Positions 553 to 62,579 of a DNA stretch of 64,000 bases are shown in pieces; the first letter of the stretch is position 1; the number at the start of each line of letters is the position of its first letter. The DNA is taken from the NCBI GenBank assembly GCA_030272155.1, contig CP126191.1:2936501-3000500 (forward strand). The letters are read 5' to 3'. This stretch comes from Tetradesmus obliquus (lineage: Eukaryota; Chlorophyta; Chlorophyceae; Sphaeropleales; Scenedesmaceae). Under the pieces are notes generated by a model. It had not been told where the DNA came from and ran no database searches. It saw nothing but the letters and a program-made list of their open reading frames with translations. The position numbers and the translations under genes were made by a program.

Positions 553-2530
553 CGATCATGAAAGTGGTGACGCTTCAGCAATGAGTTGAATTGCATTGTT
601 ACCAACATGTTCTCATCCTCTCTCATTACCTCTACAGTACTGTGAAACATGAGCTATGTCAGTTAACCAATGCACTCATCCTGCTCACGCTGTCATCCAG
701 TCAGCAGCGATCATACCGATAACAACCACGTAAGGGGAGGGGGCATTTGCTACACTGCACAAAGCACACTAGCAAACAGCACCTGACTGTTTACACGTGA
801 TGTACGCAGCCCCAGGCAGCCAAAGTCTGCAGGTGGTGCATCAACGCCAGCGCACCTGAAAATAATAACAAAAAAAGCTACTGCAACAACAGTTCCAAGA
901 CCCCGCTGTACACCGTCAGGCAATTTTCAACCACCAAACGTTTCTGCTAAAAGGTGCTGTGCAAAGCAGCTGTGTGCTGCTATCACAGCCATCGAGACAA
1001 CTGGCAGGCAGCACCAACAACGGCAACTGCCAGAACCGAGCTGTCTTGCATTTCACGCAACCTGCAGGATGAATTATCTGTGCTAGGCTCTTGCAGCGGC
1101 AGCTGCACTGCTTCTGTGCACCGATTGCAATGGCCGCAGTACATGTACGTACATCCTGCTATTGTACACACAATGCCCATGAAGGGCATAGCACTCGTAC
1201 CGGTGTTCATGCACCCAGTTGGAAAGAAAGCACACCGCAGAAGATTCAAAAATCCAACCACTGCAAAACCCAAGCCCTGCAGGACGACGTAAAAAGTACA
1301 TATGCAATGCAGGAGCTGCACGTTGGGATGAGATGTGAAGAGTGCGAGAGAGCTCATCACCAAAGGGAGGCACAACCTGCACAGACATGTCTGTACAGGC
1401 GTGCATGCAAACAGCTCTTGCAGCGAGCAAGAAAACAAGATTACTAGCAGCCATACAGTGTGCTGGCACAACGCCGCATGCGGCAGAGTCCAACTTGCTG
1501 TATAGAGAGCCACATGTAGCTGTGCTAAGTGTGCATGCACCTATTCCGTGGCCCGACGCAGCACATGGTCGAGTAATGCTGCTGCTGCCTGAAACACTGC
1601 CTCCTGGTGTACGTCATGCTGCTGCAGCTCACACACCCACACAGAGACACCACCACACACACGCAAGCTGATCACAGCAGTTGCATTGCAAAGCATCGCA
1701 TGATCTACTTCAACAACACATTCAACTCAACTGCTCATGCACACTCTGGCGCTACAAGGTGCCGCTGCAGACTGTCCCAGCCGCCAACAACAGCTGCTGC
1801 CGCCAGTCCACCACAGCTGCTGCGACCCACAAAAGGAGGGACGATCCATCCACCACTGCGTTAGTTTAGACCTAGCACCAGTTTCATCTTACTGTTGGTG
1901 ACATGCTCACTCCACCGCCCAGGTGGTAGCATACAGCACATCTCCCAGCCGCTGTCCAGTTCCAAAAGAATGCGCCTTGGATCTGGCAAACCCAAAGCGC
2001 ATGCACGCAGGCTGCATCGATGCGCATCCTAGCAGAGGATGATGGCCGCAGCCAATGAGATAGTTGGGCATGCAGAGCTAGCTGCAACCAATGGTGCAAT
2101 GTGCTCAGGCCATGCTAATGTGGGGTTCGTAAACCGGCCTGAAACTGGCAGGACTGATGTAGATCTGAGAACAGTTGAGCTGAGCTGAATCAACTGGACT
2201 AACTCACAAGGCTTTACTGGTTTACAGGGGCAGCAGCGGCCACTACCCGCAAGGGACAGCACATGCGGCATCCAGCTGCAGCACCAAATCACATCCACAC
2301 ACTGCAACCGCAAAACTGGCACAGCACCCCAAGTACTCTACAAGGGCGGCAGGGGTCCCGAGCGGCAGTGGGGCAGCACCTGCTGCGCCCACCTGCACCA
2401 TCGTACCACAGCCACAACCTCTTCAACCACAAACTTGTGACAAACTGGCACAGCACTGAGTTGATGCATATGTACTTCACAAGGGCGGCACGGGTCCCCG
2501 CCGTTACAAGGGCGGCGCGGGTCCCCGCCG
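553..2530. other. intergenic / two convergent 3' UTRs
   Basis: No credible coding sequence was seen on either strand. The region lies between two convergent genes and should hold both 3' UTRs. Short open frames here are Cys/His/Ala-rich shadows without recognisable domains. Confidence 0.5.
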
Positions 2531-2572
2531 TTACAAGGGCGGCAGGGGTCCCCAGCGGCAAGTGGGGCAGCA
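2339..2572 (-). repeat. repeated copies of the E3-ligase 3' coding end and stop codon
   Basis: The last codons of the RING E3 gene, including its TAA stop (2531-2533), lie in a 27-bp tandem array: the core caagggcggc begins at 2480, 2507 and 2534. A further copy at about 2339-2379 matches 2532-2572 at nearly every base and extends back into the last Cys codons of the RING. Upstream flanks (aaactggcacagcac, then gtact) are also shared between about 2314 and 2441, so a longer segment was duplicated as well. Because 27 bp is nine codons, the array is open in another frame. Confidence 0.85.
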
Positions 2573-4054
2573 CATACCTCCCAGGGGCACCTCCATCCAC
2601 TGCAGCAGACACTCCCTGTGGTAGAAGTGCCCACAGGGCGTCACCACTCTGCTGTCTAGAGGCATGAGGCTTGCAGGGCCCATGCAAATGACACACTCCA
2701 CCACACCCTCGCCCGTTATAACGTCATAACCCTCCACCACGTCATGCAGCAAGCTGTCACCTGCTGCATAGCTGCTGCGCCAGTTGCTGATGCTGCTGCT
2801 CCAGGGGTCAGTTGCAGTGCTGCTGAGACCTGCGGGCCTGTTCTGCTGGCGGTTGCTGCAGCTGCAGCTGCTGTCTGATAACAAGTACTGCGCATTCTGC
2901 TGCTGCTGCTGAGGTGCTGTGGGTGCTAGGCTGGACACAGCACGCCTGCAGGAGCACTGCTGCTGTGGCAGCTGTCTGCTGCCGGTTATGCGTGTGCAGC
3001 TGTACCGCCGCTGCTGCTGCTGCTGCAGTGGCGGTTGCTGCCAGCAACTGCTGGCCATGCTCGACCTGCTGCATGAGCTGCATTGCAGTTCACATACAGC
3101 CGCTGCTGCCATCTGCTGCTGATTACTGCACCATTCATGCCCTGCTACTGCCCCTGCTACACCAGCAGGCAGACAGCAATCTCCTGCTACTGCAGCTGCA
3201 GGTTGTTTGCACGCTAGTGCCATCTGAGTCACGTGCTCACTGCTACAACAGCTACTAGACTTGGCTGCTAGATGCCTGAACTGCCACGGCAACTCTGGCC
3301 TGTGGTAGTTGTACCTCTCAGGGTGCAGCACAGCCGGCAGCAGTACATGCGGGTGTGTGAAGTGCTGCAGCAGCAGCAGTGCCACTTGTGCACCCACCCA
3401 CAGCAGCAGGGCCCTTACAAGCCACGGCTGTGTTGGTAGCGACAGCATGTTATCTGGGCAGCTGAAGATATACATTGGCATCAAAAGGCGAGCCGCACTT
3501 GATGATAAGATGTAGGAAGGCTGGATTGGCTGCTTGGCTGTGCTCTGTATGCTGTGCAGCAGCTGAGGCATCCAGAAAGAGTAGGCTGCTAGCAGCAGCA
3601 GCAGCTGCGCCTGGGATGCAAGCGCCCAGGACACCGCAGTCGCTGCAGGAGTGCATGGCAGGTGCACAAACACAGCAGAGTGAACTAGTGAGTGCACGCC
3701 TTGCGCTCAACACAGAGACACGGGTTGGGCTGCATGGTGGTGGCTGCACAGATGCATGCAAGCACACATGCTTCACAGGAAAACAGCTGCAGTGGGCCAA
3801 AGGGTTGCTGAAAGGACACAGCACTTTCAGCACATGAGGTGAGCCTGGCAGCCAGGCAGCGCAAGCAAATGCAGCTGGGACAGCCTGCAGTCAGACCTTG
3901 GTCAAACTGATTGAAAAAGTAACATCTGCTTACCTAGCAGCAGCACTAGGTAGAACCGCACGTACAGCAGCAGCAGGCTGCGCCCTGTTGCCAGCTGCAC
4001 CAGGGCAGCAGCAGCTGCATCCACTGCCGCATTGGCGGCTGAGTGCAGCCTGCC

Positions 4055-8442: not shown

Positions 8443-8882
8443 TCAACTGCTGTCCATGAGCCTGCCTTCGGCGTCCTTCACCACGGACAAAACCAACCAC
8501 AGTAACCCCGGGTCATGCCGTGCATACACGAGCACAGGCTCTGGCACACCAGCTGCACCTTCTGCCTGCAGTCCCAAACCGCCCTGCCCAGCAGGGACAG
8601 CTGCCTGCTGCCACACCAACTGCTTCTCTGCAAACCCAGCAAGCAGTAGCAGCTTGACAGCTGCAGGAAATCCCAGCTTCCTCTGAAATGCAGCCTTGCT
8701 GCACCTGAGCCGTTTGTATTTGGGCTCATCTGGGTGTTCTGCCAGGCTGCTCAGGACTCCTGCAACCGCCTGCACAGCTGCTGCGCTGCTGGCACCAGCT
8801 CGGCTCGCCTGCTGCTGCAGCTGCTGCAGCAGCAATTGTGCCTGCTGCAGCTTCTGCATCACCACATCGTCGCCAGCAGTAT

Positions 8883-13052: not shown

Positions 13053-14003
13053 TACATTGCAGCAGCAGTCAGCAGCAGCAGCAGCAGCAGCGTGTTAAGG
13101 AGCGGGGCACAGCCTTGTCGAGTGCAGCACTGGTAGCTCTTGCTGGTGCTTGCATAGCTGCACTGCCGCAACTGCTGCTGCGCCTTCTTGGTTGATGCGA
13201 GCAGCTGCATGGCAACAGCAGTGCATCGTTGGTGTTTGCGTTGAGTGTTTGCATTAAGCACGCGTTGGATGTTCTGCAGGCGACCCTGACCCAGTGTGGG
13301 CTCATCATCATCAACTTATCAGTCCAGCCGTAACAATTACGTCATAACCATAACAATTCCACCAGCCTTGCATGCGTCTTATGTCTTTGCAGGTGACCCG
13401 GAGCCAGTGTGGGCTGACGCGTCTGGCGCATACCTGCTGAATGCATACAGCAGGGCCAGCGAGCAACGGCAGCAGGTGCCAGCAGACGCAGATGCAGACA
13501 CAAATGAGGATGCAGACATGCTTGTGCGCACCACGCTGCGCTCAGCATCTGTCAGCAGCTTGATCGGCGGCACATCGGCCAGCAGAGCAGCAGCAGCGGC
13601 AGCAGCAGAGCGCGCAGCGGCGCGCGCTGCAGAGGCTGCTGCAGGCGGCAGCGCAGCAGCAGCAGCAGCAGCAGTGGGTGGTGCGGATGCTGCTGCTGCT
13701 GAGGAGGCAGCAGCAGCAGATGATGATGCTGAGGGCTTTGCTTACAACAGCGGCGGCTCTGTGGTGTTCAATGGCGGCTCATACTCCATAGGTCCCAAGC
13801 AGCTGGGTGAGTGGTGCGTGTTAGTGTGGTGTTTGGGGAGACCTGCTGGCACTTGAGCAGCTACAAGCAAGTCAGTCTCAGTGCAGCACTGGCTGGTTCT
13901 TGCTGACCAAACTTGCTGATGTAATGCATTGCACTGTGGGTCCTTGCGAGTGTTTGCTGATGCTTGCTGTTGCTCTCTGCTGCTCTCTGTTGCTTGCTCT
14001 TAC

Positions 14004-16401: not shown

Positions 16402-19400
16402 ATGGGAGATGGCAGTGCTGTCATGCAATCTGTGATGATGCTGAGGGGCACAGGCAATGGCCACTCAGCACCAGAAGGCTTGCCTGCAGTTGATGGCAGC
16501 GCGTCATTGCTGGGCAGTGCACTTCAGCAGCTAGAAAAACGCTTCAGTTCAGGCTCTATGGGTGCAGGCAGCAACGGCTGGGGCCCGGCCTCAATGCAGA
16601 ATGGCGTGTTCAGTCAGTCACAGCCAAACAACAGCGTGCAAGCAGATCTGATGGATAGCCAGCAGCAGCACGTAGCGCTACAGCAACCAGAGCAGTCAGG
16701 GCTGCAACAGCAGCAGCAGCAGTTTGAGTTTGCGCAGGCAATGCAGCAGCAGTACCAGCAGCAGGTGACCCACATGCAGGCCTTTGTAGGTGCACAAATG
16801 GCACAGCTGCATGGCAGCGTGGAGCAGCAGCAAGCCGCTGCTGCCGTGCAGCAGCAGCTGCAGCAGCAGCAGGCCTTGCAGCTCGCCAAAGCTGCTGCGG
16901 CAGCAGCAGCAGCACCAGCAGCTGCTGGCGTTCCTCGGCCGAGGCTGTCAAAAGATGGCAGCTGGTTCAATCCAGGCAGCGCCACCCAGCAGCAGCAGCA
17001 GCAGGGGCAGTTGCAGCAGCAACAGCCTCACCACCAGCAGCAGCTGCAAGGTGCTGTCTCTGCGTTGCGCCAGAGCCTCATGCAGCAGCAGCAGCAAATG
17101 CAGCGGCGCCAGAGCTTGGAGCAGCAGCAGCAGCAGCACAGCTTGGGTCAAGATGCTCAGCTGGCAACCAAGCCTCTGGTATTCAAGGTTGGCTCACAAG
17201 CGCAGCCTGGCACACACATGGTGTTTGCGAAAGCAGGCAGTGGTACATTTGGCAGTGCACCAAGCAGCAGCACACAGGCGCCTTACATGGCCTTCCAGCA
17301 GCTGCAGCAGCAGCAGCAGCAGCTTGCGGGCGATGGCAGCACACAGGCATCTGCTGCTGCTAATGCTGCTGCAATGCCAGGCTCCCAGCCACACAACAGC
17401 AGCAGCAGCACAGCTGCCGCTGCCGGCAGCACCAGCAGCAGCAGCTGCAGGTTCAGTGCAAACGGCCCGCCCAGCAGCAACCTGACGGTGCGCATGACCA
17501 TTCAGTTGGTGGCGACATACAAGAAATGCACACCTGTGGGGCCAGGGGCAGGCGTGCCGCAGCCGCTGCCACGCAGGGTGCTGACTAAGCCCGGCGCAGC
17601 GGTGAAGAACGATGGCTGGGATAATGAAGCAAGCGACTTGGTGCTGTGCACACAGGTGAGCGGCAGCAGCAGCAGTTAGTAAGTGTTGCCGTGCAGACAT
17701 GCAGGTGGTGTGGGTGTGTATGTCGATGCATAGGTTATGAGCCTGCAGTGCGGCAGCAGTAGCTGGCTGACTTGCCAGCCTGGCGGCCCCTGCTGTGAAG
17801 AAGCAGAAGCCTTTTGGAGCAGCGGATGTTGCGGTTCTGGGCAGGGTTTCTGTCTGTCTGCAACGTATGCTTGCATATGGTTGCATGAACGCTGGCAATG
17901 CACACCAACAACAACTGCTGCTGCTGCTGTGCCAGGACGTGCTGGTGAATGCCGCGGGGCAGCGTTACATCGTGCTGGACATGCTGGGCAGCGGCACCTT
18001 TGGCCAGGTGGTGTCAGCGTACAGCGAGGCAGCAGGCAGGCCCGTGGCCGTCAAGGTGAGGCCGGCAGCAGCAGCAGCAGCAGCACCTGAGCAGCGGCTG
18101 TTGTGTCGCGTGCGTTGGTGGCAGCAGCATGTTGGCCAGTGCATGTTTGTATCGCTTGCAGCAGCAGCAGCAGTGACGTTTCTTCAGAGCACAGACGTGC
18201 AGCAATAGGCAGCATGTCTCTGCAAGTGTCGCGCACTCCTGGCACGCCTGTCCCTTGCAGCTGATCCAGATGTGGCCCAGATGTGGCCTGAACCACACAG
18301 TTTCCATCCAAGGGCCTCATTGTCATGCCATTGTCTCCTTCGCTTCCGGCCCCCTGCTTGCCCCGCAGGTGACCAAGACCGCGGGTGATCAAGCACCAGC
18401 CCACCTACTACCACACAAACAGCTTGGTCCTGTGTCCATCACATGCATTGCTGTGCTGCTCTGCTTGCCCCGCGGGTGATCAAGAACCAGCCCTACTACC
18501 ATGCACAAAGCTTGGCCCTTTGTTTATCACATGCATTGTCATTCTGCTTCCGTCTTTCCCCGCAGGTGATCAAGAACCAGCCCGCCTACTACCACCAGGC
18601 ACGCGTGGAGGTGGGCATCCTGCAGCTGCTCAACGGCCGCTGCGACCCGGGTGACGCGCACCACCTGGTGCGGCTGCACGACGCCTTCCTGCACAGGCGC
18701 CACCTGTGCCTGGCCTTTGAGCAGCTGGGCATCAACCTGTTCGAGCTGCTGAAGCGCAACGGCTTCAGGGGGCTGAGCCTGGGGCTGCTGCGGCTCTTCC
18801 TGCAGCAGGTGAGCTTGTTTGCTGTGTATCTGATTGCAAGTGCTGTTTGCATCTACTGGGGGAGTGAAGGCATGTACGCATATCACAGAGTCAGGCTGCG
18901 TTTGTGTGTGTCGTGCTGTACAGAGCGTGTTTCTGCGTGGTGCTCTGGTGTGCTGATGGCTGGCATATGTGCGTGGCGGCTGTTCCTGTGATGACTGTCA
19001 TTTGCGGGCTGCAGTGGCCTGGTGCTGTGTTGTCCGACCTATGCACCTGACTTCATGTCCTGTCTGTCGGCTTACCCTGCATGCGCCAACTGATAGGATC
19101 GCATTGCGTTGACTGACATGCGGCTTTGCCCCGTGCTTCTCGTCCTTCCCCTGCAGATCCTGGACGCGCTGATCGTGCTGCGTGACGCCTCCATCATCCA
19201 CTGCGACCTCAAGCCCGAAAACATCCTGCTGGCGCCCCCAGCAGCCTCAGGAGGCGCCCTGGGCCAGCTCAAGCTCATCGACTTTGGCAGTGCATGCTTC
19301 GAATCCCGCACCGTGTATAGTTACATTCAGAGCAGGTTTTACCGCAGCCCTGAGGTGCTGCTGGGGCTGGCGTACTGTGCGGCCATCGACATGTGGAGCT

Positions 19401-52412: not shown

Positions 52413-53183
52413 ATGAACTCCCTAACGCCCAGCGCGACTCGATCTGCCACTTTGCGAGGCTCTCACATGTCCAAGCAGCTGTTGACAAGGCGCAACCTTG
52501 GCCTAGCAGGCGTTGGCCTTGCAGCCACTACAGCCATCCAACTAAGCTTCCAGCAACGCGTTAACGCACTACCTCAAGCCCCAAGGGCCGAGCAGATGGC
52601 TACCAGCGCCAGCATGGCCCCAGCCAGCCCGCTGCGTGCAGTGAACCTGCGAGACATAGGCGAGGTGGACCCCCGCCTCAGGAAGGGTGTGCTCTTCCGC
52701 TGCTCCCAAATCTACACACCTGAGGTCCTGCAGGAGCTCAAGATCCGCACAGTGGTCGATCTTCGAGGCAGGGCAGAGAAAAAGAAGGTCAAAACCCCCA
52801 AGCCTGGCGACAGTGCAGCAGCAGCAGCAGCGCCAGCCGGCCCTCCTCAGCTGCTGGCTCATGATCAAGCAGAGGCCCTTGCTCCCCCCGGCCCAGCTGC
52901 ATCATCCACCCCTGCAGAGGAGGACATTGCAGTGACACGGCTGCGCCACAATGCATCCGCTGCCTCTGTCTCATCAGTTGATTCAGAGGAAGAATCCTCA
53001 GGCAATGGAGGCAACGGCGGCACTGTGCGGCGTGCTGCTGGGGCAGAGGAGATGGCTGTGGGGCTCACTGAGGGCACTGATGCCATGGGCTTTGGAGGGC
53101 CTGACACGGAGCGCTTCAATGTGATCCCCACAAAGGAGTTTGGCCTGGCGATGCTGCGCATGCCCTGGTGGGTGCGAGTGGGT

Positions 53184-53224
<41 letters not shown>

Positions 53225-55692
53225 TGGGGCAGCTGGGCGGGTGCAGGGGGGTTTGAGAAGATTTTGTAAGATGCTGCATGCATTCTGCATGAACCTGTTT
53301 GGTCACAAGCAAGCGTCACCTTATATTTCATGTGCCATCCTTGGTGAGGAGATGCCTTGAGGGTTTCACGCACATGCACATGCGCACCTTGAAGTTGCTA
53401 ACCCATGCTGCGCATGCCCTGGTGGGTGGGAGTGGGTGCAGCAGCAGCAGCAGCAGCAGCTGGGGCAGCTGAGTGGGTGCATGGAGTCCGTAAAGAAGGG
53501 AAAGAATACTGCATGCATTTGGCATGACACTGTTGAGTTACAAGCTAGCAATTCCTCACCTTGCACCCGCCACCCAACAAACGGACAATGCATGAGTGCT
53601 TGATGCACGTGCGTGCCTTGGGTTTGCCAACCCAGGACGCATCAGTCACTGACCGACCCCACATAATTTGTGACACATGCCTGCTGCTGCTGCTGCTGCC
53701 GCCTCCAGGCGCGTGTGGCGCTCCGCGCTGGGCAACCTGGCCACGGGGCACGATGCGCGCAAGCCCTTCGTGGACGCCTTCGCTGATGAGCAGCTGCTGG
53801 GCTTCACCAAGGTGGGGGGTGGGCCAGCAGGGCTGCATGAGTGCGTCCCAAGTTGCTTGGCAAGGCAGCGCATTGTTTGTGGTGAACACGCATCGCATGC
53901 AGTAGCATGCAGGCAGGCAGGCAGCCCGGCACATGATGGATGTATGCGTTCAGCAGCATGACAGCAAGGTTCCCATGTGCCTTGCGATGGACGAGGTGTA
54001 GCGTGTGGACGCATTTGCTGACCAGCAGCTGCTGGGCTTCACCAAGGTGCGGGGTGTGGCGGCAGGCACCATGCATGCATGAGTAGTAGTAGTAGTAGTG
54101 GTAGTAGTGTATGTTTTCCTGCAGTGCATTGGCTATTGGCCATGAAGATACTCCTTGCAGGCAGGCAGGCAGGCAGGCAGGCAGGCGGATGAGCAGGCAG
54201 GGAGGCGAGCACGTGATGGGTGCTGCAGCTCGACTTCAAACAAGTCACCTCTTGTGCCTTGCACCAGGTGCTGTGTAGCTGCTGGCTGTCTCACAGGCGG
54301 AAGAGCTGCTGCTCATTTTGGATTGTTGTTGAACACGCAAAGCAGCAGCTGAGTTGCGCTTGTGCTGTGCTCTGTGTGCTGCTCATCGCTGCCTGCTTGG
54401 CCTGCAGTACTACACCATCATCCTGGAGCATGCCAAGAAGAACATCGCAGGTGCGGCAGCGCTGCTTGCAGTGTCTGGTTCAAAAGTAGCGCGGCAGACG
54501 CTGCCTGTTCTTGCCTGCCCGTTGCTGTTTATCCCCGTACAGCAGTTGTCTTGCGGGTACTGTTGGCAGCGTGTCAGCTCGCCTGCTCCTGCAGTGCTTG
54601 CATCGGGGTTCAGGCGTTCCAGTAAAATCATGCTGCAGCTATGCTTGCTCCGTATCGGCAGCTCCTCTGCAGTGCCTGCGTGCGCAGCTGCTACCCGCTG
54701 TTTTTCGAGCTTGCACTGGGCAACCTTGCTGCATCATCTGCTGCTAGTGTCCATGCTCACGTGCCTGCTGCTGCTGCAGCCATCATGCGCATCTTTGCCA
54801 AGGAGCGGGCGCTGCCAGCGCTGGTGCACTGCGCGCACGGCAAGGACCGCACTGGCGTGGTCATCATGCTGCTGCTGCTGCTTTGCGATGTGCCTCATGA
54901 GGCCATCGTGCAGGACTACGTGCAGGTGGGCGGGCGGGGGGGGGCATGTTGCAGCTGCTGTTGCTGCTGATGCTGATGCTGCTGCTGCTGGTGTGTGACG
55001 TGCCTCATGAGGCCATAGTGCAGGACTACGTGCAGGTGCGTGGGTGCTGGGGACGTACTGCTGCTGCACCTGCTATGTCAAGAGTTTATTGCTGAACAAT
55101 GCTGATGACATTGCTGGCAGTGTGGCTATACCATGCTGATTGTGTAGTATGCCGTTGCTACTCATTACAAGATGCTGATGGCGTTCTCTTCTCTGCTGCT
55201 GCTGCTGCTGCTGCCAGTCCGAGATCGAGCTGCGCCGCTACCGTGAGTCGCTGGGGCTGCCCGACCCCACGGGTGCCACTGGCGCCATCATCCCCCTGAA
55301 TGACGTCATCATCGCCAGCACACAGGAGACGCTGCGCGCAGTGCTGGTGAGTATTGGTCAAACTTTGACCCTCGAAGATTGAAATTAAAATTGAAATCAA
55401 TCAGCCTTTAGTAAATCTCAGCTAAAACCATACTGGCGCTACAAATGCTACCCATGAAGCAGTTTGTCTTGCTGTGTGCGCATCCTACACACATGGTCTC
55501 ACACGCACTGCGTGCATTTGGATTTGACCAGAGCCAAAGGAGATGGCTGCAGTACAGAGAAAAAGCTGTGTTTGTATCCATCTTGATTTGCTGCAGGGGA
55601 TGGGTACACCAGGCGGGCAGCAGCTGCTCCCGGCTGCTCTGGGCGCTTACTGCCGCTGCCCCGCCACCTGCACATGCTGCCACATTTGCTGG

Positions 55693-55729
<37 letters not shown>

Positions 55730-55944
55730 CCTACATGGACTCCACCTACATCACCGTGGACAACTACCTGGCCAGCTGCGGCCTCAGCCAGCAGGAGATT
55801 GAGGCCATCCGCAACAACCTGCTGCAGCCAGGCGCCCCCAGGCAGGGCGCTGGGGGCGATGAGGCCCCGAGTGAGAAGGCGCAGGCGGCAGCAGCAGCAG
55901 CAGCGGCAGCAGTGGGGCGCGGCGCGCAGGAGGGCGAGCTGTGA
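52413..55944 (+). CDS. Protein tyrosine phosphatase (NLRD-type, Tyr_phosphatase_3-like)
   Basis: Cysteine phosphatase. Model: join(52413..53167, 53709..53811, 54408..54450, 54780..54925, 55218..55346, 55729..55944), in phase, 463 residues. The N-terminus is Arg/Ser-rich with a hydrophobic stretch (RRNLGLAGVGLAATTAIQL), possibly an organelle signal. The domain opens with AVNLRDIGEVDPRLRKGVLF and LKIRTVVDLRG; an acidic, Ser-rich insertion of about 110 residues follows. Then come RVWRSALGNLATGHDARKPF, YYTIILEHAKKNI and the active-site loop HCAHGKDRTG (Cys near residue 319), and EIELRRYRESLGLPD. The exon-1 donor (CCCTG/GTGGGT) was chosen by phase, giving MPWRVWRS. Every intron but the fourth begins or ends with CAG/CTG runs, and three introns and the 3' UTR contain tandem copies of the adjacent exon edge. 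Confidence 0.92.
53403..53640 (+). repeat. tandem copy of phosphatase exon 1 tail plus intron segment
   Basis: The sequence atgctgcgcatgccctggtg with its GTGGGT donor, the following CAG run and ctggggcagctg recurs at 53403 after the original at 53152, an offset of about 250 bp. The downstream intron also aligns loosely (gcatgcattctgcatga against gcatgcatttggcatga). Confidence 0.88.
54005..54240 (+). repeat. tandem copy of phosphatase exon 2 tail plus intron segment
   Basis: The codons for VDAFADEQLLGFTK and the following donor recur about 230 bp downstream as VDAFADQQLLGFTK/gtgcgg. Three of four differences are synonymous. The intron following each copy carries a (GCAG)n run, longer in the second copy (54156-54186), and the second copy also has a gtagtagtag run near 54085. 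Confidence 0.88.
54978..55033 (+). repeat. tandem copy of phosphatase exon 4 tail with donor
   Basis: The last 14 codons of exon 4 (CDVPHEAIVQDYVQ) recur about 108 bp into the intron with only three changes, all synonymous, and again end in CAG followed by GTGCGT. Confidence 0.92.
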
Positions 55945-55998
55945 GGGTCTGCTGTGGTGATGGTGGGTTGGGACAATTTGTTGTGTGATAGCAGTGTT

Positions 55999-56047
<49 letters not shown>

Positions 56048-56055
56048 CAGCAGAG

Positions 56056-56187
56056 CAACAACCTGCTGCAGCCAGGCGCCCCCAGGCAGGGTGCTGGGGG
56101 CGATGAGGCCCCCAGTGAGAAGGCGCAGGCGGCAGCAGCAGCAGCAGCGGCAGCAGTGGGGCGCGGCGCGCAGGGGGGCGAGCTGTG
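56056..56187 (+). pseudogene. first 3' UTR copy of the phosphatase C-terminal coding end
   Basis: This copies the last exon from NNLLQPGAPRQ to GRGAQ-GEL plus the TGA stop, about 244 bp downstream of the original. The segment is preceded by a (CAG)n run at about 56000-56045. Most differences in the first 25 codons are synonymous. Confidence 0.92.
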
Positions 56188-56283
56188 AGGGGGGAGGGGC
56201 TGAGGAGCGGCTGTGGGTGATGGTGATGGCGGGGGTCGTTGTGGTGTATGATAGCAGTGGTGACAGCAGCAGCAGCACCTGGG

Positions 56284-56420
56284 CAACAACCTGCTGCTGC
56301 CGGGGGCCCCCTGGGAGGGCGCACCGGGCGCAAATGAGGCCCCCAGTGAGAAGGCGCAGGCGCCGGCAGCGGCAGCAGCGGCAGCAGTGGGGCGCGGCGC
56401 GCAGGGCGGGGAGCTGTGAG
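56284..56420 (+). pseudogene. second 3' UTR copy of the phosphatase C-terminal coding end
   Basis: A third, more diverged copy starts about 228 bp after the previous one. It keeps the frame, the EAPSEKAQAPAA stretch, GRGAQGGEL and the TGA stop. Confidence 0.9.
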
Positions 56421-56668
56421 GGCCTGCAGAGCTACTGTGGTGGCGGGTGAAGTTATGCAGTGCTTGACAACAGCAGCTGCAGGTGGTTTGTGAGTGGCTC
56501 CCTCCTCAGGAGTCGCCTCTTGCTAGAAAAACGTGTAATTGATTGATTTATTGAGCTGCAGCAGTGGCAGCGGCGTCTGATGAGCGCTGCTTTTGCAGGC
56601 AGCCACATACAGCACTGCAGGATGCCCTTCTGACAGCAGTAGGAGGCCGGCTCATAGCAGGAGCAACA

Positions 56669-56707
<39 letters not shown>

Positions 56708-57081
56708 GAAGTGATTACGTCCAGCAAGGCAGGCAGTGAGGGCTGTTGACCTCGGAGTTGCACAGGTGGATGGCTCTGCCGCGCCGGGCAACGGATGGCC
56801 CCAAAGCCATGCTTGCCTGAGCCCGCATGCCACATGGGTGAGGATATGCTGTGTGCAGTGGGTGCTGCATGCTCTGTATCATCAGTGTGTGTATCTCAAT
56901 TCAGCATGCCTTGCCTCTGGAACCGTTCGTGGACCAGGTGGCAAGTGGCAGTGGCAGCGGCACTTTTGTTCCTCTGCTAATAAAACGAGCTAATAAAGCG
57001 ATCAGCATGGAGCAATGGCATTGCCAGGCTGCATCCTTGCGCGTGGAACACGTGCATCTGCAACGATGGTTGATCGATCAA

Positions 57082-57139
<58 letters not shown>

Positions 57140-58996
57140 TGGCACGGGGAGCGTATGGTTGCGGCACCTTGCGCCTGTGTGCAAGCCGGCAGAGGTTGTT
57201 GCTACTTGAACAAACAGCGGTTGTGAATGGCTTGTGCAACTTTCACATGGGATGCAGTACACACGTGTCACGTAGCATCACTTTGTCAGTTGTGAACTGC
57301 AATGGGGCGTGCATGGGTGTCGGTCTTTTTAACATGCTTCGCTCTTGAGTGTGCCAGGAGGCGCGACTTTTGCGACCTAGTTTGTGTGGCATTGGTGCAG
57401 GGCGTGTTGAGTGGCAGCAGCGGCTGCTGAGCTTCAATGTGCGCGGCATACTGCATGTGCTGTAGGTGCCGCGTGGCCCTCTCTCTGTTGTCTCACTTGC
57501 GTTTGCTTCCCTTTCCTTTGTTAGTCAGGATTAACAGGACGTGTGTGTGGACTGTTACAGTGTGGACTGTTTGTATCTGTCCGTTGCTTTTGATTTAGGC
57601 AAGGGGTTACTCTAGCTGTATGAAGCACTCTATTGCGTGGTTGCACCGCATGGTTGCATGGTTGCACCGCATGGTATTCTGCATTGCAGAAGTATATGTA
57701 TGACGTGCGTGCAGCTGAGCAGCTTGCACGGTGCCACTGAGCCTGAGGCTCAGCCTGCACTGCGGCGAACGCAAGTCGTGTACATGTTCACATGGGTCAT
57801 TTTGACGGCGGCTGTTAAACTCGCTGGCTCTCGCTGGCTGACAGACTTTTGCAGAAGCAGGGAAAGTACAGTCGGTGGCGGTTACCCAGCTCACACGCTT
57901 GCAAGTGTGGCGTGATCTGTTGTAGTCAGACCGGTAGCAGAATGATCCACACTCTCTCTGATACTTGCACATCAACCACGTGCTTACGGTGGACAGCCGC
58001 AGCAATGGCTGCCAGAGCCACAACAACAGCATTGCTTCAAGGTGCGCAGCTGTGCATGACCAGCGTACTTCGGTATCCTGGCTTTGTCTAGAATTCGTCA
58101 TTTTACAACAGCCGAGGTCGCGGTCGCGATTGAAGGAGTTTAGGGGACACAGCGCTGCATGCATGCAACGTCCCCACAGCCTACCACTCACTCGCAGGCA
58201 AGCAAAGCTGCATACACCCATGCGTGCTGGCTGTCTGAACAGCACAACGTTGCCTAGGAGTCTTGCAGACTCACAGGCTGCTGTGCTGCCACAACAGCGC
58301 AGTTGCAGTGCAGCTTGCTGTGGGCCTCACAGCCATGCCGTACCAGCGCCAACAACAGCACGTGTGCTGCTGCATGTGTACCAGCACACCTGCTCCGTGG
58401 GTCGTTCAAGCATCTTTGGTGGCAGGCTGCTGCAGTGCCGTACATGCAGCAGCGTGAGGCCACAGGCCATGCATGCTGCGACCGCCATGACCAACACCAC
58501 GAATGGGCAACACACTAGCAACGATCCAACAAAGGCATGCAGTGCTGCATGCACAGCAGCACTGCCTTGAACCAGCAGCGCTCGACAGCTTGACACAGCA
58601 CGCGCTTCAATCAGCAGCAGCAGCACGCCTCATAATAGCATCCCCACTGCTGCATGGCAGCATATGTACACCATACAGCCCTATGCGTAGCCCAGCTGAA
58701 GTCATGACTGCTCCGGTGCCGATAACGCCAGCTGCCGCCACCGGCAGCTTTGAACGGCACGTAGCGAGCCTGGCAGCAGCTCAACACGGCAAGTCACGCA
58801 CCCAGGTGCACTTCTGGCCATCTATGCAAAACTGCACACAGGATTGTCTCCTGCTCGGCTGAACACCAGCAGAGCTGCATGCACAACAAACACGCCACAA
58901 CAATCTCCCAGCTGCATGCCAGCTGCTGGCACTTGCCTCAACATCCCGCAACACAAAACAGCAACCGACAAAGTCCGAGGTTCCACGACATCCCAA
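56421..58996. other. intergenic between convergent genes
   Basis: No gene recognised. It includes a (CAG)n run at 57083-57138, another at about 56671-56703, and a short tandem duplication of tggttgcaccgcatggt near 57639-57674. The left part is G/T-rich and the right part A/C-rich on the plus strand, matching the 3' UTR directions of the phosphatase (+) and Snu114 (-) genes. Confidence 0.45.
57083..57138 (+). repeat. (CAG)n microsatellite
   Basis: About 18 CAG units lie outside any recognised gene, followed by cgtggcacgg. Confidence 0.9.
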
Positions 58997-59096
58997 CTAC
59001 AAGGCCATCTGCTGGAACTCCGTGTCCTGCTTGGCCAGCTCCAGCAGCATGGGGTCTTCAAAGAACTTGGCCACGCTCACGTCCTCGCTCATGCCA
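58997..59096 (-). pseudogene. 3' UTR copy of the Snu114 C-terminal coding end
   Basis: The last 31 codons of Snu114 ([20 protein letters not shown] onward) and the TAG stop recur about 260 bp downstream of the real stop. Three base changes are seen: one synonymous, D to E in FFDDP, and the last codon F to L. It stays in frame to its own TAG. Confidence 0.92.
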
Positions 59097-59258
59097 GCAG
59101 AGCAGCTGCATGCATCTCCTTTTTGTTTGGCCACCATGCCACAAGCCCGCTGCCAGCTGCTGACACCAAAACCCGCTGCCAGCTGCTGACACCTCAGTCA
59201 GCACAGCACAACGCAGCACGCTACAAAGCCGCAGCCCTCAAACCACCCTAAAAACCTC

Positions 59259-60809
59259 CTAGAAGGCCATCTGCTGGAACTCCGTGTCCTGCTTGGCCAG
59301 CTCCAGCAGCATGGGGTCGTCAAAGAACTTGGCCACACTCACGTCCTCGCTCATGCCCTTGCGCCGCCGCGTCTTCACGCAGAACTCACGAGCCAGCGCA
59401 GCAATTGGAGCAGGTTCGAGCGGCCGCAGCACCACGCCGCGGTCCAGGGGGTCGCCCGGTACCACCGCCCAGTGGTCAAACACGCACTGGCAGAACGCCT
59501 GGCCCTGCGGGGTGCAGAAACAAGGAGGGAAGGGAGGAGCAAGCGCAGCAGGAAGGGAAGGGGGTGTGGCACATCCGTGCGTCAGCGACTTGCTGTTAGC
59601 TGTCTTGCGTGGTGTGGCATGTGCAACAGAGGTAGAAAAGATAGTTGTCAGCTGTGCACTGGCAGAGGATGTAGCACCACGCCGCGGTCCAGGGGGTCAC
59701 CCGGCACCACTGCCCAGTGGTCAAACACACACTGGCAGAAGGCCTGGCCCTGCGGGGTGCAAAATAGTGATTGAATGACATTTGTAGGGGTGAGATCTAC
59801 AATGTAGCTCATGAGTGTGTCAGTAAATGAGCTTGCAGGTATGAATCAGGGCGCAGAAGAGCAAGCAGAGCAAGGCGGGGAGAGGTATGGCACGCCAGTG
59901 TGTTGGGTCAGTATGTTGATGACTGGGCGTCCAGCTGGGGTGCAGGGAACAGCTGGCGGCCACATGCATGGTGTGGCGTGTGCACTGTAAGTCAAAACAG
60001 GCTCCCCAGCCCAACAGGGCGCTGAATGCATCCAAAAAGCACTGCAGGGCAACCACCACCCCCTTCCCACCCGATTTCGCACCTGTGTGTGGTACCGCAG
60101 GTCTGTTTCAAACCCGAAGCTCTCAATCACGGGCAGGTACGCCTTGACAGTAAAGATGGGCGTGCCCGGCCGCGGCAGGTCCTTCGTGACGTGGCCACGG
60201 CGCTTCGCGAGCACGTTGTAGATGGCTGCGATGCAGTCTGCGGGTGTCTGGATCTCCACGTAGTACATGGGCTCCATGAGGCGGGGTGTGGCCATGAGGA
60301 AGGCGCTGTAGCACACGCGGCGTGCGGTGGGGATGACCTGCAGCAGAGTGGATGTGTGGCAGAGTAGAGCCAGCATTGGTGCGTGTGCATGCACCGTGTT
60401 GATGGCGGCACCCACCTCGAAGAGAAGGACAGCATGCGGCCGGCATCTGTGTGTGAACGAGTGCGTCTGGACGGGCAAGACGGGAGACGCAGGTGCCGGG
60501 ATTTGCCATCAGCCATGCCACGCGCTGAAACAGTAACCAAGCATTCTCTGATTCAGAGCAGTAGAGCTTCTGTCTACCTACAACCGGCAAGCCACGCTGG
60601 GAATACTAGGCAGCAGCCAATGGGTGTCAGGCTCAGCACGCTGCCGCCCTCTCCCTGCGCGCAGTGCAGACCATCCTCACCTGGCCGCCTCCCCTGTGCA
60701 GCGGTTCGTCTGCGATGAGTGCGTCTGTCACCTTGAACTTCACGTTGCGGATGGGCTCGTCACACAGCGGGCCCTCACGCGTGCCCCACTGGAAGCCCTG
60801 CTCAAGGAA

Positions 60810-60851
<42 letters not shown>

Positions 60852-61693
60852 CAGCAGCGGGAAGATGAGACGCTGCATGACAATGCAAGCACTTGAGTAC
60901 ACGCAGCAAGTGCTGGGCCAACAAGCCAGCGGCCAGCTGCGGCATGCAGTCTCCCAGAATACAATGCGCAAAAGCCGCCAGCAGCCAGTCAGCCCAAATG
61001 TTACGACAGCGACTCACGAGTCAACCAGCAAGCCACTACAAGACAAGCAACGAAAGCAACGCACCTTTCACACCGGCAACAAGAAAGAAAAACACGCACC
61101 ATAAGAACCTCACCTGCACAATGCTGTCCCTGACTGCCCCCAGCAGCCCCTTATCCACCTCGCCAGCCAGCGTGTCATCCAGCAGCACGTTAGGCCCGTC
61201 AGCAGCAGGCCCAAAGGCCCACACGCTGCGCGCAGCCAGCGGGTCCCACTCGTAGGTGTCCACAAGGTAGGTGCCCAGCTTGCGCGCTGGCCAGGTGATG
61301 CTGTAGATTGACAGATAGATTGAGGCGGGCGGGAGGGTGGTCAACAGCAGCAGGGGCAGGCAGGCAGGGGTTGGCAGTGGAGGTGAAGCAGCACAATTAG
61401 TTGGCGTTGACAAACATACAGGCATCTGATGTGCTTAGGATGGACGCCTGATACCATTGCTGCATTACACACCTGTCATGTTGTGACAATGCCATAATGA
61501 CACAAATAACACGTTATAGCACACCTGATCTTGCCCGACTCAATGTCCTCTGCCAGGCCCTTGTCCAGCGGCTCTGCGATCATGGTCAGCTTGTTGCGCC
61601 TGTTGGGTGTTTCTGCAAAGCATTTGAGGCTGCTGGTCTCCACCACAGTCTCACAGAAGGCCACCACGGGGTCAGCCACCTTGACCTCAATGT

Positions 61694-61738
<45 letters not shown>

Positions 61739-61848
61739 GCAGCCGGCAGATGCGGCGGGAGCAGCAGGCATGGTACACAGGTCAGTGACATCTGAAAGAA
61801 GGGCAGGGGAAGGCCACCACCGGGTCAGCCAGCTTCACCTTGATGCCT

Positions 61849-61889
<41 letters not shown>

Positions 61890-62579
61890 GTTCACACAGG
61901 GCCAGCTACATCCTAGCCATCCGCATCGCAAGCAGGCATAAAGCAGCATGAAGGTCGCTGACGATGGCTCCTGCTCAACTGTTCCAGTACAACACATCAG
62001 CTGAGAGTGCATTTTGGCTTCATCAAACTTGTCTGCTACCCTGCAGCACTGCCGGCGCCATGTGGCACAGGCGCCAACTGCTGCAGCGCGCCTGCTTCCC
62101 TAGTACAAACGCACCTGCGTACATCTCCCGCAGGTCCTTCATGATGCTGTCCAGGTACAGCTCGCCTGTGCCCAGCAGCGTGTGCTCGCCAGACTCCTCC
62201 ACACGCGTCACAGCAAGCGGGTAGCTGCACACACAAAGAGTGCAACCAGGGCAGCAGCGGCAGGAGGGTCGAAGGATTGACACTGATGCTGGCACAATGC
62301 ACAACTGCCATGGCCGGGTACAAGTGGGGCAGACGCACCAGGCAGCACTGACTTGTGTATGCCTGTTACACCGTGACACCCCATGCACAATGGCGACATC
62401 GGTGGCCCCTGACTAGACAGTTAGCAGAAGTATTTGGCCATGCAGAGAGAGGTCTCCCTGTCAAACCCTGTACTCAGCAACAAAGCAGCGCCGCACCTCT
62501 TGTTGATCTTGCGCAGGCCCTCCACCATCTTGGGCAGCTCGCTCGGCTGCAGCGGCTCGGTTGCGATCTTCATCACACT

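Follow-up and report, generated by a model that had tools for sequence, protein, structure and literature searches.

The window, a 64,000-nt stretch of the green alga Tetradesmus obliquus (contig CP126191.1; C1:2936501-3000500 of the 104.66-Mb, 17-contig genome), contains local copies of exon ends in introns and 3′ untranslated regions (3′-UTRs). An inspection of these letters without database searches, here called the sequence-only reading, had drawn attention to such copies, and the interval flagged by it holds a tyrosine-phosphatase-like gene on the plus strand and a homologue of Snu114/EFTUD2 on the minus strand. In the present study these copies were compared with those in other parts of the genome. 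The differences between copies and exons resemble those between coding sequences and, in the tested pairs with unalignable intron flanks, fit a single third-position divergence, and most copies may be junctions between diverged versions of the same gene.

For comparison, 30 further 10-kb pieces (labels L...) representing all 17 contigs, 20 at chosen places and 10 at random, were added to the window, giving 364 kb in total. Gene models were generated with a simple exon-intron hidden Markov model (HMM) that was self-trained on the 364 kb and verified with three proteins only (phosphatase, amidinotransferase and Snu114). The satellite-rich pieces L015, L020 and L029 were dropped from all counts of edges, arrays and edge copies, which refer to the remaining 28 sequences (334 kb). 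Edges were counted for long exons only, exons below 90 nt being left out, and an intron flank was judged as aligned or unaligned on 60 nt. Three pairs from L028 were left out of the tests of third-position share, of two-fold and four-fold codons and of homogeneity. The self-comparison of the window was performed with simple repeats masked, at offsets of 25-700 and scores of at least 22, with two block shuffles as control.

The following features were located in the phosphatase gene:

52596..53167, plus strand: first exon of the tyrosine-phosphatase-like gene OEZ86_011041; end placed by hand with the public protein P0121 (402 aa) as guide
53405..53437, plus strand: copy of the end of exon 1 with its donor, in intron 1 (pair 53151-53183 and 53405-53437, 97%)
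53770..53811, plus strand: 3′ end of exon 53709-53811, parent of the 54005 copy (HMM and alignment)
54005..54066, plus strand: copy of the end of exon 53709-53811 with donor (self-comparison, alignment)
54884..54925, plus strand: 3′ end of exon 54780-54925, parent of the 54994 copy (HMM and alignment)
54994..55052, plus strand: copy of the end of exon 54780-54925 with donor, peptide VCDVPHEAIVQDYVQ (self-comparison, alignment)
55811..55945, plus strand: 3′ end of the final exon, including the stop codon (NNLLQPGAPRQ...EGEL, then stop; self-comparison, protein comparison)
56055..56191, plus strand: second copy of the coding end, with the stop and some 3′-UTR, 98% identical; (CAG)n ahead of the copy
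56284..56454, plus strand: third copy of the coding end and stop; matched part from 56334, 94% to the second copy and 83% to the first

The duplicated part of the first exon is its 3′ end (53151-53167) with the donor; the HMM extended this exon to 53240, past the hand-set end. The intron part of the same unit is still 64% alike (53271-53377 and 53506-53612). In the 54005 copy the mismatches are distributed 1/0/3 over the codon positions of the 42-nt exon part. None of the copies is contained in the public phosphatase gene model.

In the Snu114 gene, whose joined product is 98% alike to the T. obliquus SNU114 homologue P0001, the following features were found:

59259..59505, minus strand: last exon of the Snu114/EFTUD2 homologue, a GTPase of the U5 small nuclear ribonucleoprotein; ends set by hand (HMM: 59275-59504)
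58997..59095, minus strand: copy of the final ~97 nt of the last exon, in the 3′-UTR; 97%, offset 262
59664..59764, minus strand: copy of the acceptor (TGCACCCCGCAG) and the first ~86 nt of the last exon, in the upstream intron; 90%, offset 245
61525..61685, minus strand: exon with duplicated acceptor side (HMM, joined gene)
61809..61848, minus strand: copy of the acceptor side of exon 61525-61685, between two (CAG)n tracts; 85%, offset 153

The copy at 58997..59095 ends at the stop codon, and its likeness to the exon stops at the TAG. In the 59664 copy the mismatches by codon position are 0/1/8, so that eight of the nine within 86 nt fall on third positions. A Snu114 paralogue was rejected as the source of the copies, as a genome search with the last 166 residues returned only this gene, its own copies, a 54-55% homologue and one 28% match. 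Further copies of Snu114 exons were observed in L002: two diverged copies of its own start lie ahead of the P-loop exon (~3040-3390; 67040-67390 on the window scale), and two identical ones lie ahead of the next-but-one exon (VTAAMRLADG; 2127-2459).

Position and distribution of the copies

In the window the self-comparison yielded 22 pairs of direct repeats; the block shuffles yielded no pair. The sequence-only reading had listed at least ten loci with copies of exon ends, and each of these overlaps a pair, with starts differing by at most 16 nt (50 nt for 56284); the matching pairs begin at 2339 and 2532, 13275 and 13388, 18379 and 18560, 18404 and 18492, 53151 and 53405, 53770 and 54005, 54884 and 54994, 55811, 56055 and 56334, 58997 and 59259, 59419 and 59664, and 61656 and 61809. 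A splice site or stop codon is included in the copy, as had been claimed, in all five window pairs that were aligned. The copies had also been described as immediately adjacent, which is only partly right, the matching part taking up a median of 0.4-0.5 of the offset. The proposed decay on the outer side is seen in the profile of all copies, in which identity is ~0.9 over the first 29 exon nt and 0.92 and 0.91 at intron positions 1 and 2, and falls to ~0.5 by the 8th and 0.4 by the 16th nt beyond the edge.

The density of copies had been regarded as the outstanding property of the window. At a score of at least 25, however, the window contains 2.5 pairs per 10 kb against 0-146 (median 10) in the 30 pieces, 22 of which exceed it, and only 5 of its 108 long-exon edges carry a copy, compared with 83 of 534 in 27 sampled pieces. 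Altogether, one or more copies accompany 88 of 642 long-exon edges in the adjoining noncoding sequence, and 36 of the 88 have two or more; the old copies are in this way tied to exon edges, as had been proposed. Regional clustering of the copies was strong, with many in L010, L012, L014, L016 and L017 and few or none in L007, L008, L011, L019 and L021; copies were found at 16/28 edges in L014 and 12/18 in L017, and at 0/34, 0/24 and 0/24 in L007, L008 and L019, respectively.

Among 85 pairs of a long exon and noncoding sequence, 38 span an acceptor (copy upstream in 37), 35 span a donor (copy downstream in 34) and 12 span neither. No offset between copy and exon is below 85 bp; most are 100-160 bp, and a second group lies at ~200-275 bp. 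For the 54 old copies with offsets below 200, the spacer between copy and parent measures 50-110 nt in 43 cases and 30-164 nt in the remainder. With respect to the intron flank, 23 of 137 edge copies are clearly alignable, 82 are not and 32 are in between. The ratio of nonsynonymous to four-fold change is 0.63, 0.29 and 0.38 in these three classes, respectively (Fisher P = 0.029 for the first two), and the copies with alignable flank, a second and ordinary class, thus change almost neutrally.

Complete duplications behaved differently from the old copies. Whole units of 87-287 bp are repeated head to tail in 16 arrays, two of which are multiples of 16- and 29-bp units, and 7 of the 16 touch an exon edge, against 8.5 ± 1.8 expected under random placement in the same piece (P = 0.87). 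Two more (L010, and L018 at 2850) are composed of exon-edge-like sequence without touching a predicted edge and would raise the number to nine. In this small sample complete duplication is therefore not visibly drawn to exon borders. The enrichment of tandem copies at splice borders that had been proposed is not supported for these mostly recent arrays, a result that the sequence-only reading itself had named as contrary to it.

Divergence, splice sites and junctions

The 70 pairs tested for the codon position of their mismatches fall into 46 with unalignable and 24 with alignable flank. In the former the share of third positions is 0.68, compared with a simulated neutral share of 0.43 ± 0.03, and in the latter it is 0.51 compared with 0.44 ± 0.04. 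Where codons of the 46 pairs with two-fold degeneracy differ in the third base only, 30 synonymous transitions were counted against 2 transversions that change the amino acid, while four-fold sites (42 transitions, 60 transversions) and noncoding repeats (504 and 483) served as controls. In codons with a single difference, nonsynonymous change per site amounts to 0.13-0.21 of four-fold change; for the old copies, with multiple changes counted, the ratio is 0.29 at acceptors and 0.35 at donors. CpG mutation was rejected as the source of the third-position excess, which persists at non-CpG sites (0.146 versus 0.036 and 0.042). A copy left outside the reading frame by ordinary tandem duplication is expected to decay regardless of codons, which is roughly the case for the 23 alignable copies (0.63) but not for the unalignable ones. 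The latter evolved, or were acquired, as coding sequence.

Third-position divergence is homogeneous at 0.208 in 44 unalignable pairs from 16 loci (χ2 = 33.5, 43 degrees of freedom). All 67 pairs are likewise homogeneous (0.182, P = 0.20), the 23 aligned pairs less so (P = 0.03). Models with a spread of values fitted the 44 pairs poorly, whether uniform between 0.1 and 0.31 (P = 0.006), with a standard deviation of 0.05 (P = 0.02) or with exponentially distributed ages (P < 0.001), and synonymous saturation was discarded as the reason for the uniformity because it would lie at 0.46. A continuous supply of duplications, whether these decay or are preserved, would lead to a spread of ages, whereas the split of diverged gene lineages would lead to a single value. 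Neither this value nor the synonymous pattern had been foreseen in the sequence-only reading.

Three copies were compared with proteins of other Scenedesmaceae, and three of the five residues that differ from the exon match these relatives. Scenedesmus NREL 46B-D3 shares a V with the phosphatase copy at 54994, the exon having L instead. Two residues that are A and R in the L030 exon are V and Q, respectively, in its copy; the V is shared with UTEX 393, NREL and the OEZ85 related protein, and the Q with NREL and the OEZ85 related protein. The related proteins used for L030 may be paralogues.

Splice sites are kept as a rule, with AG at 73/82 acceptors and GT at 47/55 donors (plus five GC), and neither a donor nor an acceptor was seen at the inner end of the copies. 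An in-frame open donor is present in the exon half of 6 of 37 acceptor copies compared with 26 of 360 control acceptors, and a few single loci may qualify as border-crossing duplications with a recruited donor; of the earlier proposal that the duplications lengthen introns and seed exons, only the lengthening was borne out. No clear effect of the offset modulo 3 was detected (ratios of 0.25/0.39/0.26 for acceptor and 0.36/0.50/0.41 for donor copies), and a retained in-frame extension was set aside on this ground. Complete mini-exons, as suggested by HMM parses with copies of 3n length, were also rejected, as the 3n length is imposed by the parser and a second splice site is missing. Tandem duplication across AG/GT sites had been put forward as a route of intron gain; AG/GT interchange between copy and exon occurs in 6/71 pairs (5/37 acceptor, 1/34 donor), which is about chance (10-12% in a shifted-register control) and offers no excess to back that route. 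The same applies to slippage at repeat-rich borders: simple repeats lie near 3 of 137 inner junctions compared with 195 of 5600 intron positions, and CTG/CAG-type triplets near 33 of 137 compared with 1109 of 5600 (P = 0.23). Taken together, the missing inner splice sites, the rarity of open donors, AG/GT interchange at chance level and the lack of a modulo-3 effect and of repeats argue against both exon birth and slippage. Introner-like mobile introns, from which a dispersed spacer family would be expected, were rejected too: within the 364 kb most 71-nt flanks have no match outside their immediate surroundings, and the scattered weak matches form no visible family.

Several observations were made besides. 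At least four (CTG) units occur within 45 nt upstream of 79 of 461 predicted acceptors, compared with 13 of 456 cases directly downstream of donors and 106 of 5850 for 45-mers drawn at random from introns; examples in the window are 55193-55217 and 55687-55727, and these tracts may serve as the polypyrimidine tract. One intron of L010 harbours four copies of a single exon start (5423, minus strand), of which ~35 nt are identical in the exon and all four copies; the spacers differ, except for two that look identical by eye. The remaining loci in the window are:

18379..18595, plus strand: acceptor-side copy of exon 18566-18808, offset 181, with a further pair at offset 88 (self-comparison)
13275..13415, strand not assigned: short repeat pair, offset 113, 89% (self-comparison only)
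2339..2560, strand not assigned: 29-nt pair at offset 193 and a 27-bp array at 2479-2553 (self-comparison)

A TAA in the amidinotransferase gene of L030 (~8690-8704) stands at the position of a Y in the UTEX 393 protein (GVAYVALSE), and the public OEZ86 amidinotransferase model is without the TAA-bearing segment. In the T. obliquus amidinotransferases P0243 and P0241 the C-terminal halves hardly differ, but the N-terminal halves show far less likeness by eye, as if these were partly converted paralogues. Satellite arrays with periods near 312 and 333 bp were seen in L015 and L020, and repeat offsets in steps of ~41 bp in L029 (kb 10-20 of contig 6).

Origin of the copies

The reading favoured here, with somewhat less than even confidence, is that most copies are junctions between diverged versions of the same gene that arose by real exchange between lineages, and for it we infer a diverged homologue and a repair route. 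A break would occur inside an exon, and only one of its ends would invade a homologous template, perhaps a diverged homologue in a heterozygous diploid. Copying would run through the rest of the exon, over its edge and mostly 50-110 nt into the adjacent intron or UTR, after which the invading end would be released and connected to the other side of the break by end joining. In this way the exon would be preserved in full, while its former end would be left behind in the intron or 3′-UTR together with the splice site or stop codon. An identical template would produce an ordinary tandem duplication, introns included; with a diverged homologue only the exon part would match. Events would begin in exons and appear at exon edges because only exons are alike between the lineages. 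One-sided repair would account for both classes of copy, and a self template would give the same geometry.

With regard to a possible template, T. obliquus UTEX 3031 has been reported to be diploid with diverged haplotypes (Biondi 2024, by its title as cited in PMC12636532, and passages of the latter), and two 17-contig assemblies of 104.70 Mb and 100.30 Mb appear in a table of PMC12571836. Judging by that title and by the 208-Mb assembly of strain DOE0152z (PMC5552973), the two are presumably the haplotypes of UTEX 3031. A broader statement is made with more reserve: the introns and UTRs of T. obliquus might hold thousands of half-exons that were stranded there when one-sided repair took place between diverged homologues. 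Derived from earlier or alternative alleles, they would amount to a fossil record of allelic exchange throughout the genome, and each copy would date and identify a past partner lineage and mark the end of repair synthesis. Scaling the 137 edge copies of all kinds from 334 kb to 105 Mb gives tens of thousands, the sample being uneven and only partly random.

Differences between copy and exon like those of two coding alleles, with one divergence value, were found for the nearest copies; within multi-copy arrays they varied. Copies of one array differ from each other by 0 to 10-11 of ~15 third positions, and the 36 edges with several copies carry two to four of them, several being as unlike each other as they are unlike the exon. 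Two haplotypes can therefore hardly be the sole source, and several lineages would have to be involved in repeated events, an assumption that is awkward beside one uniform divergence. Changes private to one copy of an array are nearer to neutral, if not fully so (70/69/104 by codon position; 8 transversions versus 17 transitions in two-fold codons). For homologues a value of 0.21 at third positions is high, some copies have plainly decayed (L028, L003), and the contrast between the flank classes reaches only P = 0.03-0.06. In two of the five residues compared the copy is the odd one, namely Q in the 54005 copy versus E in the exon and NREL, and I in the L030 copy versus V in all others. The old copies also contain 11 stop codons in 1832 codons; the three in the tested pairs decide nothing, with 4.7 ± 2.3 expected under neutrality and 2.3 ± 1.7 under constraint.

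The copies could also stem from the assembly, if consensus building, polishing or joining had strung two diverged haplotypes (or strains) together at exon edges and had thereby placed an exon and a bit of its own intron inside the exon of the other haplotype. Such mixing would explain the synonymous pattern, the single divergence and the intact splice sites, would produce almost the same pattern where there is one copy only, and matches spacers of short-read scale (43/54 old copies at 50-110 nt). It is nevertheless considered rather unlikely, given that several edges carry at least three mutually different copies, part of which later decay may explain, that complete duplications at various stages of decay occur as well, and that the assembly is called telomere-to-telomere, gapless and phased in a title of the reference list of PMC12636532. 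Selection is invoked by another explanation, in which ordinary tandem duplications keep their exon half because the copy is spliced into some transcripts as an alternative exon end. The protein-level constraint, the good splice sites and the partial constraint on copy-private changes would fit, and a full mini-exon of 45 or 54 nt is conceivable for some copies in L014 and L028. However, this explanation is unlikely in view of the inner ends without a second splice site, the frequencies of open donors (6/37 versus 26/360) and of AG/GT interchange (6/71) and the lack of a clear modulo-3 effect. Moreover, a uniform divergence is unexpected for copies of many ages, the public phosphatase model has none of them, and an insertion in Snu114 would probably hit a conserved domain.

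The view of the sequence-only reading, ongoing slippage or break repair at repeat-rich exon borders with subsequent decay of the copies, draws on the complete duplications at some borders (L002, L014, L016, L018 and L027) and on the frequency of (CTG)4+ tracts just upstream of acceptors (79/461 versus 106/5850). It is improbable, as the complete arrays show no edge enrichment, the inner junctions are not near repeats and decay would take no account of codons. Frequent gene conversion between exon and copy, holding both alike while the introns drift, would explain the ~35-nt stretch in L010 that is identical in the exon start and four copies with different spacers; yet without selection on the copy a nonsynonymous/synonymous ratio of at least ~0.5 is estimated by reasoning, compared with 0.13-0.35 observed, and this process is very improbable.

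If exchange between diverged homologues is the cause, the copies in a single genome would reveal the frequency, the reach and the partner of homologous repair running into non-homologous sequence in a diploid alga, and would provide a neutral explanation for exon-like intron sequence that could otherwise be mistaken for exon birth. As far as we know, such run-off events have otherwise been studied with engineered breaks. If the assembly is at fault, thousands of exon borders in the public reference would have to be corrected, and gene models that rest on this reference are affected.

Relation to known systems

To our knowledge, diverged half-exons left in introns across a genome have not been described, and a literature search found no account of such exon-edge copies in T. 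obliquus in its listings. Repair in which one end invades a homologous template and is afterwards end-joined has been described in plants. It predicts a duplication with an intact target and with two unlike junctions, one of them homologous and the other non-homologous, as in the T. obliquus copies.

Other systems share part of the picture. In the potato-type border-crossing duplication, an intron end and exon start are directly duplicated and the copy keeps the acceptor and polypyrimidine tract, and the same gene also carries an 83-bp intronic duplication. There a cryptic exon donor makes a new intron, as demonstrated with RNA reads, whereas most T. obliquus copies are without a donor and their intron halves are usually unmatched. 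Tandem coding copies near splice sites are likewise found in the AGGT duplication model (Rogers 1989, as cited in PMC4974935) and in novel Drosophila introns formed by tandem duplication (PMC2891723); AG/GT interchange is only at about chance level in T. obliquus. Direct duplications are ascribed to break repair in the work on staggered breaks, small tandem duplications and Pol alpha-primase/CST, the relevant passages of which also cite hints of staggered-break duplication in plant and human insertions (PMC8355091). Fill-in of the same molecule would give identical copies and could probably not by itself generate synonymous-only divergence next to unrelated introns. The mosaic haplotypes of allodiploid Auxenochlorella (PMC12636532) come from another direction: exon-edge duplications are not mentioned in the passages concerned, which describe diverged haplotypes mixed by mitotic recombination and name T. 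obliquus as a possible hybrid.

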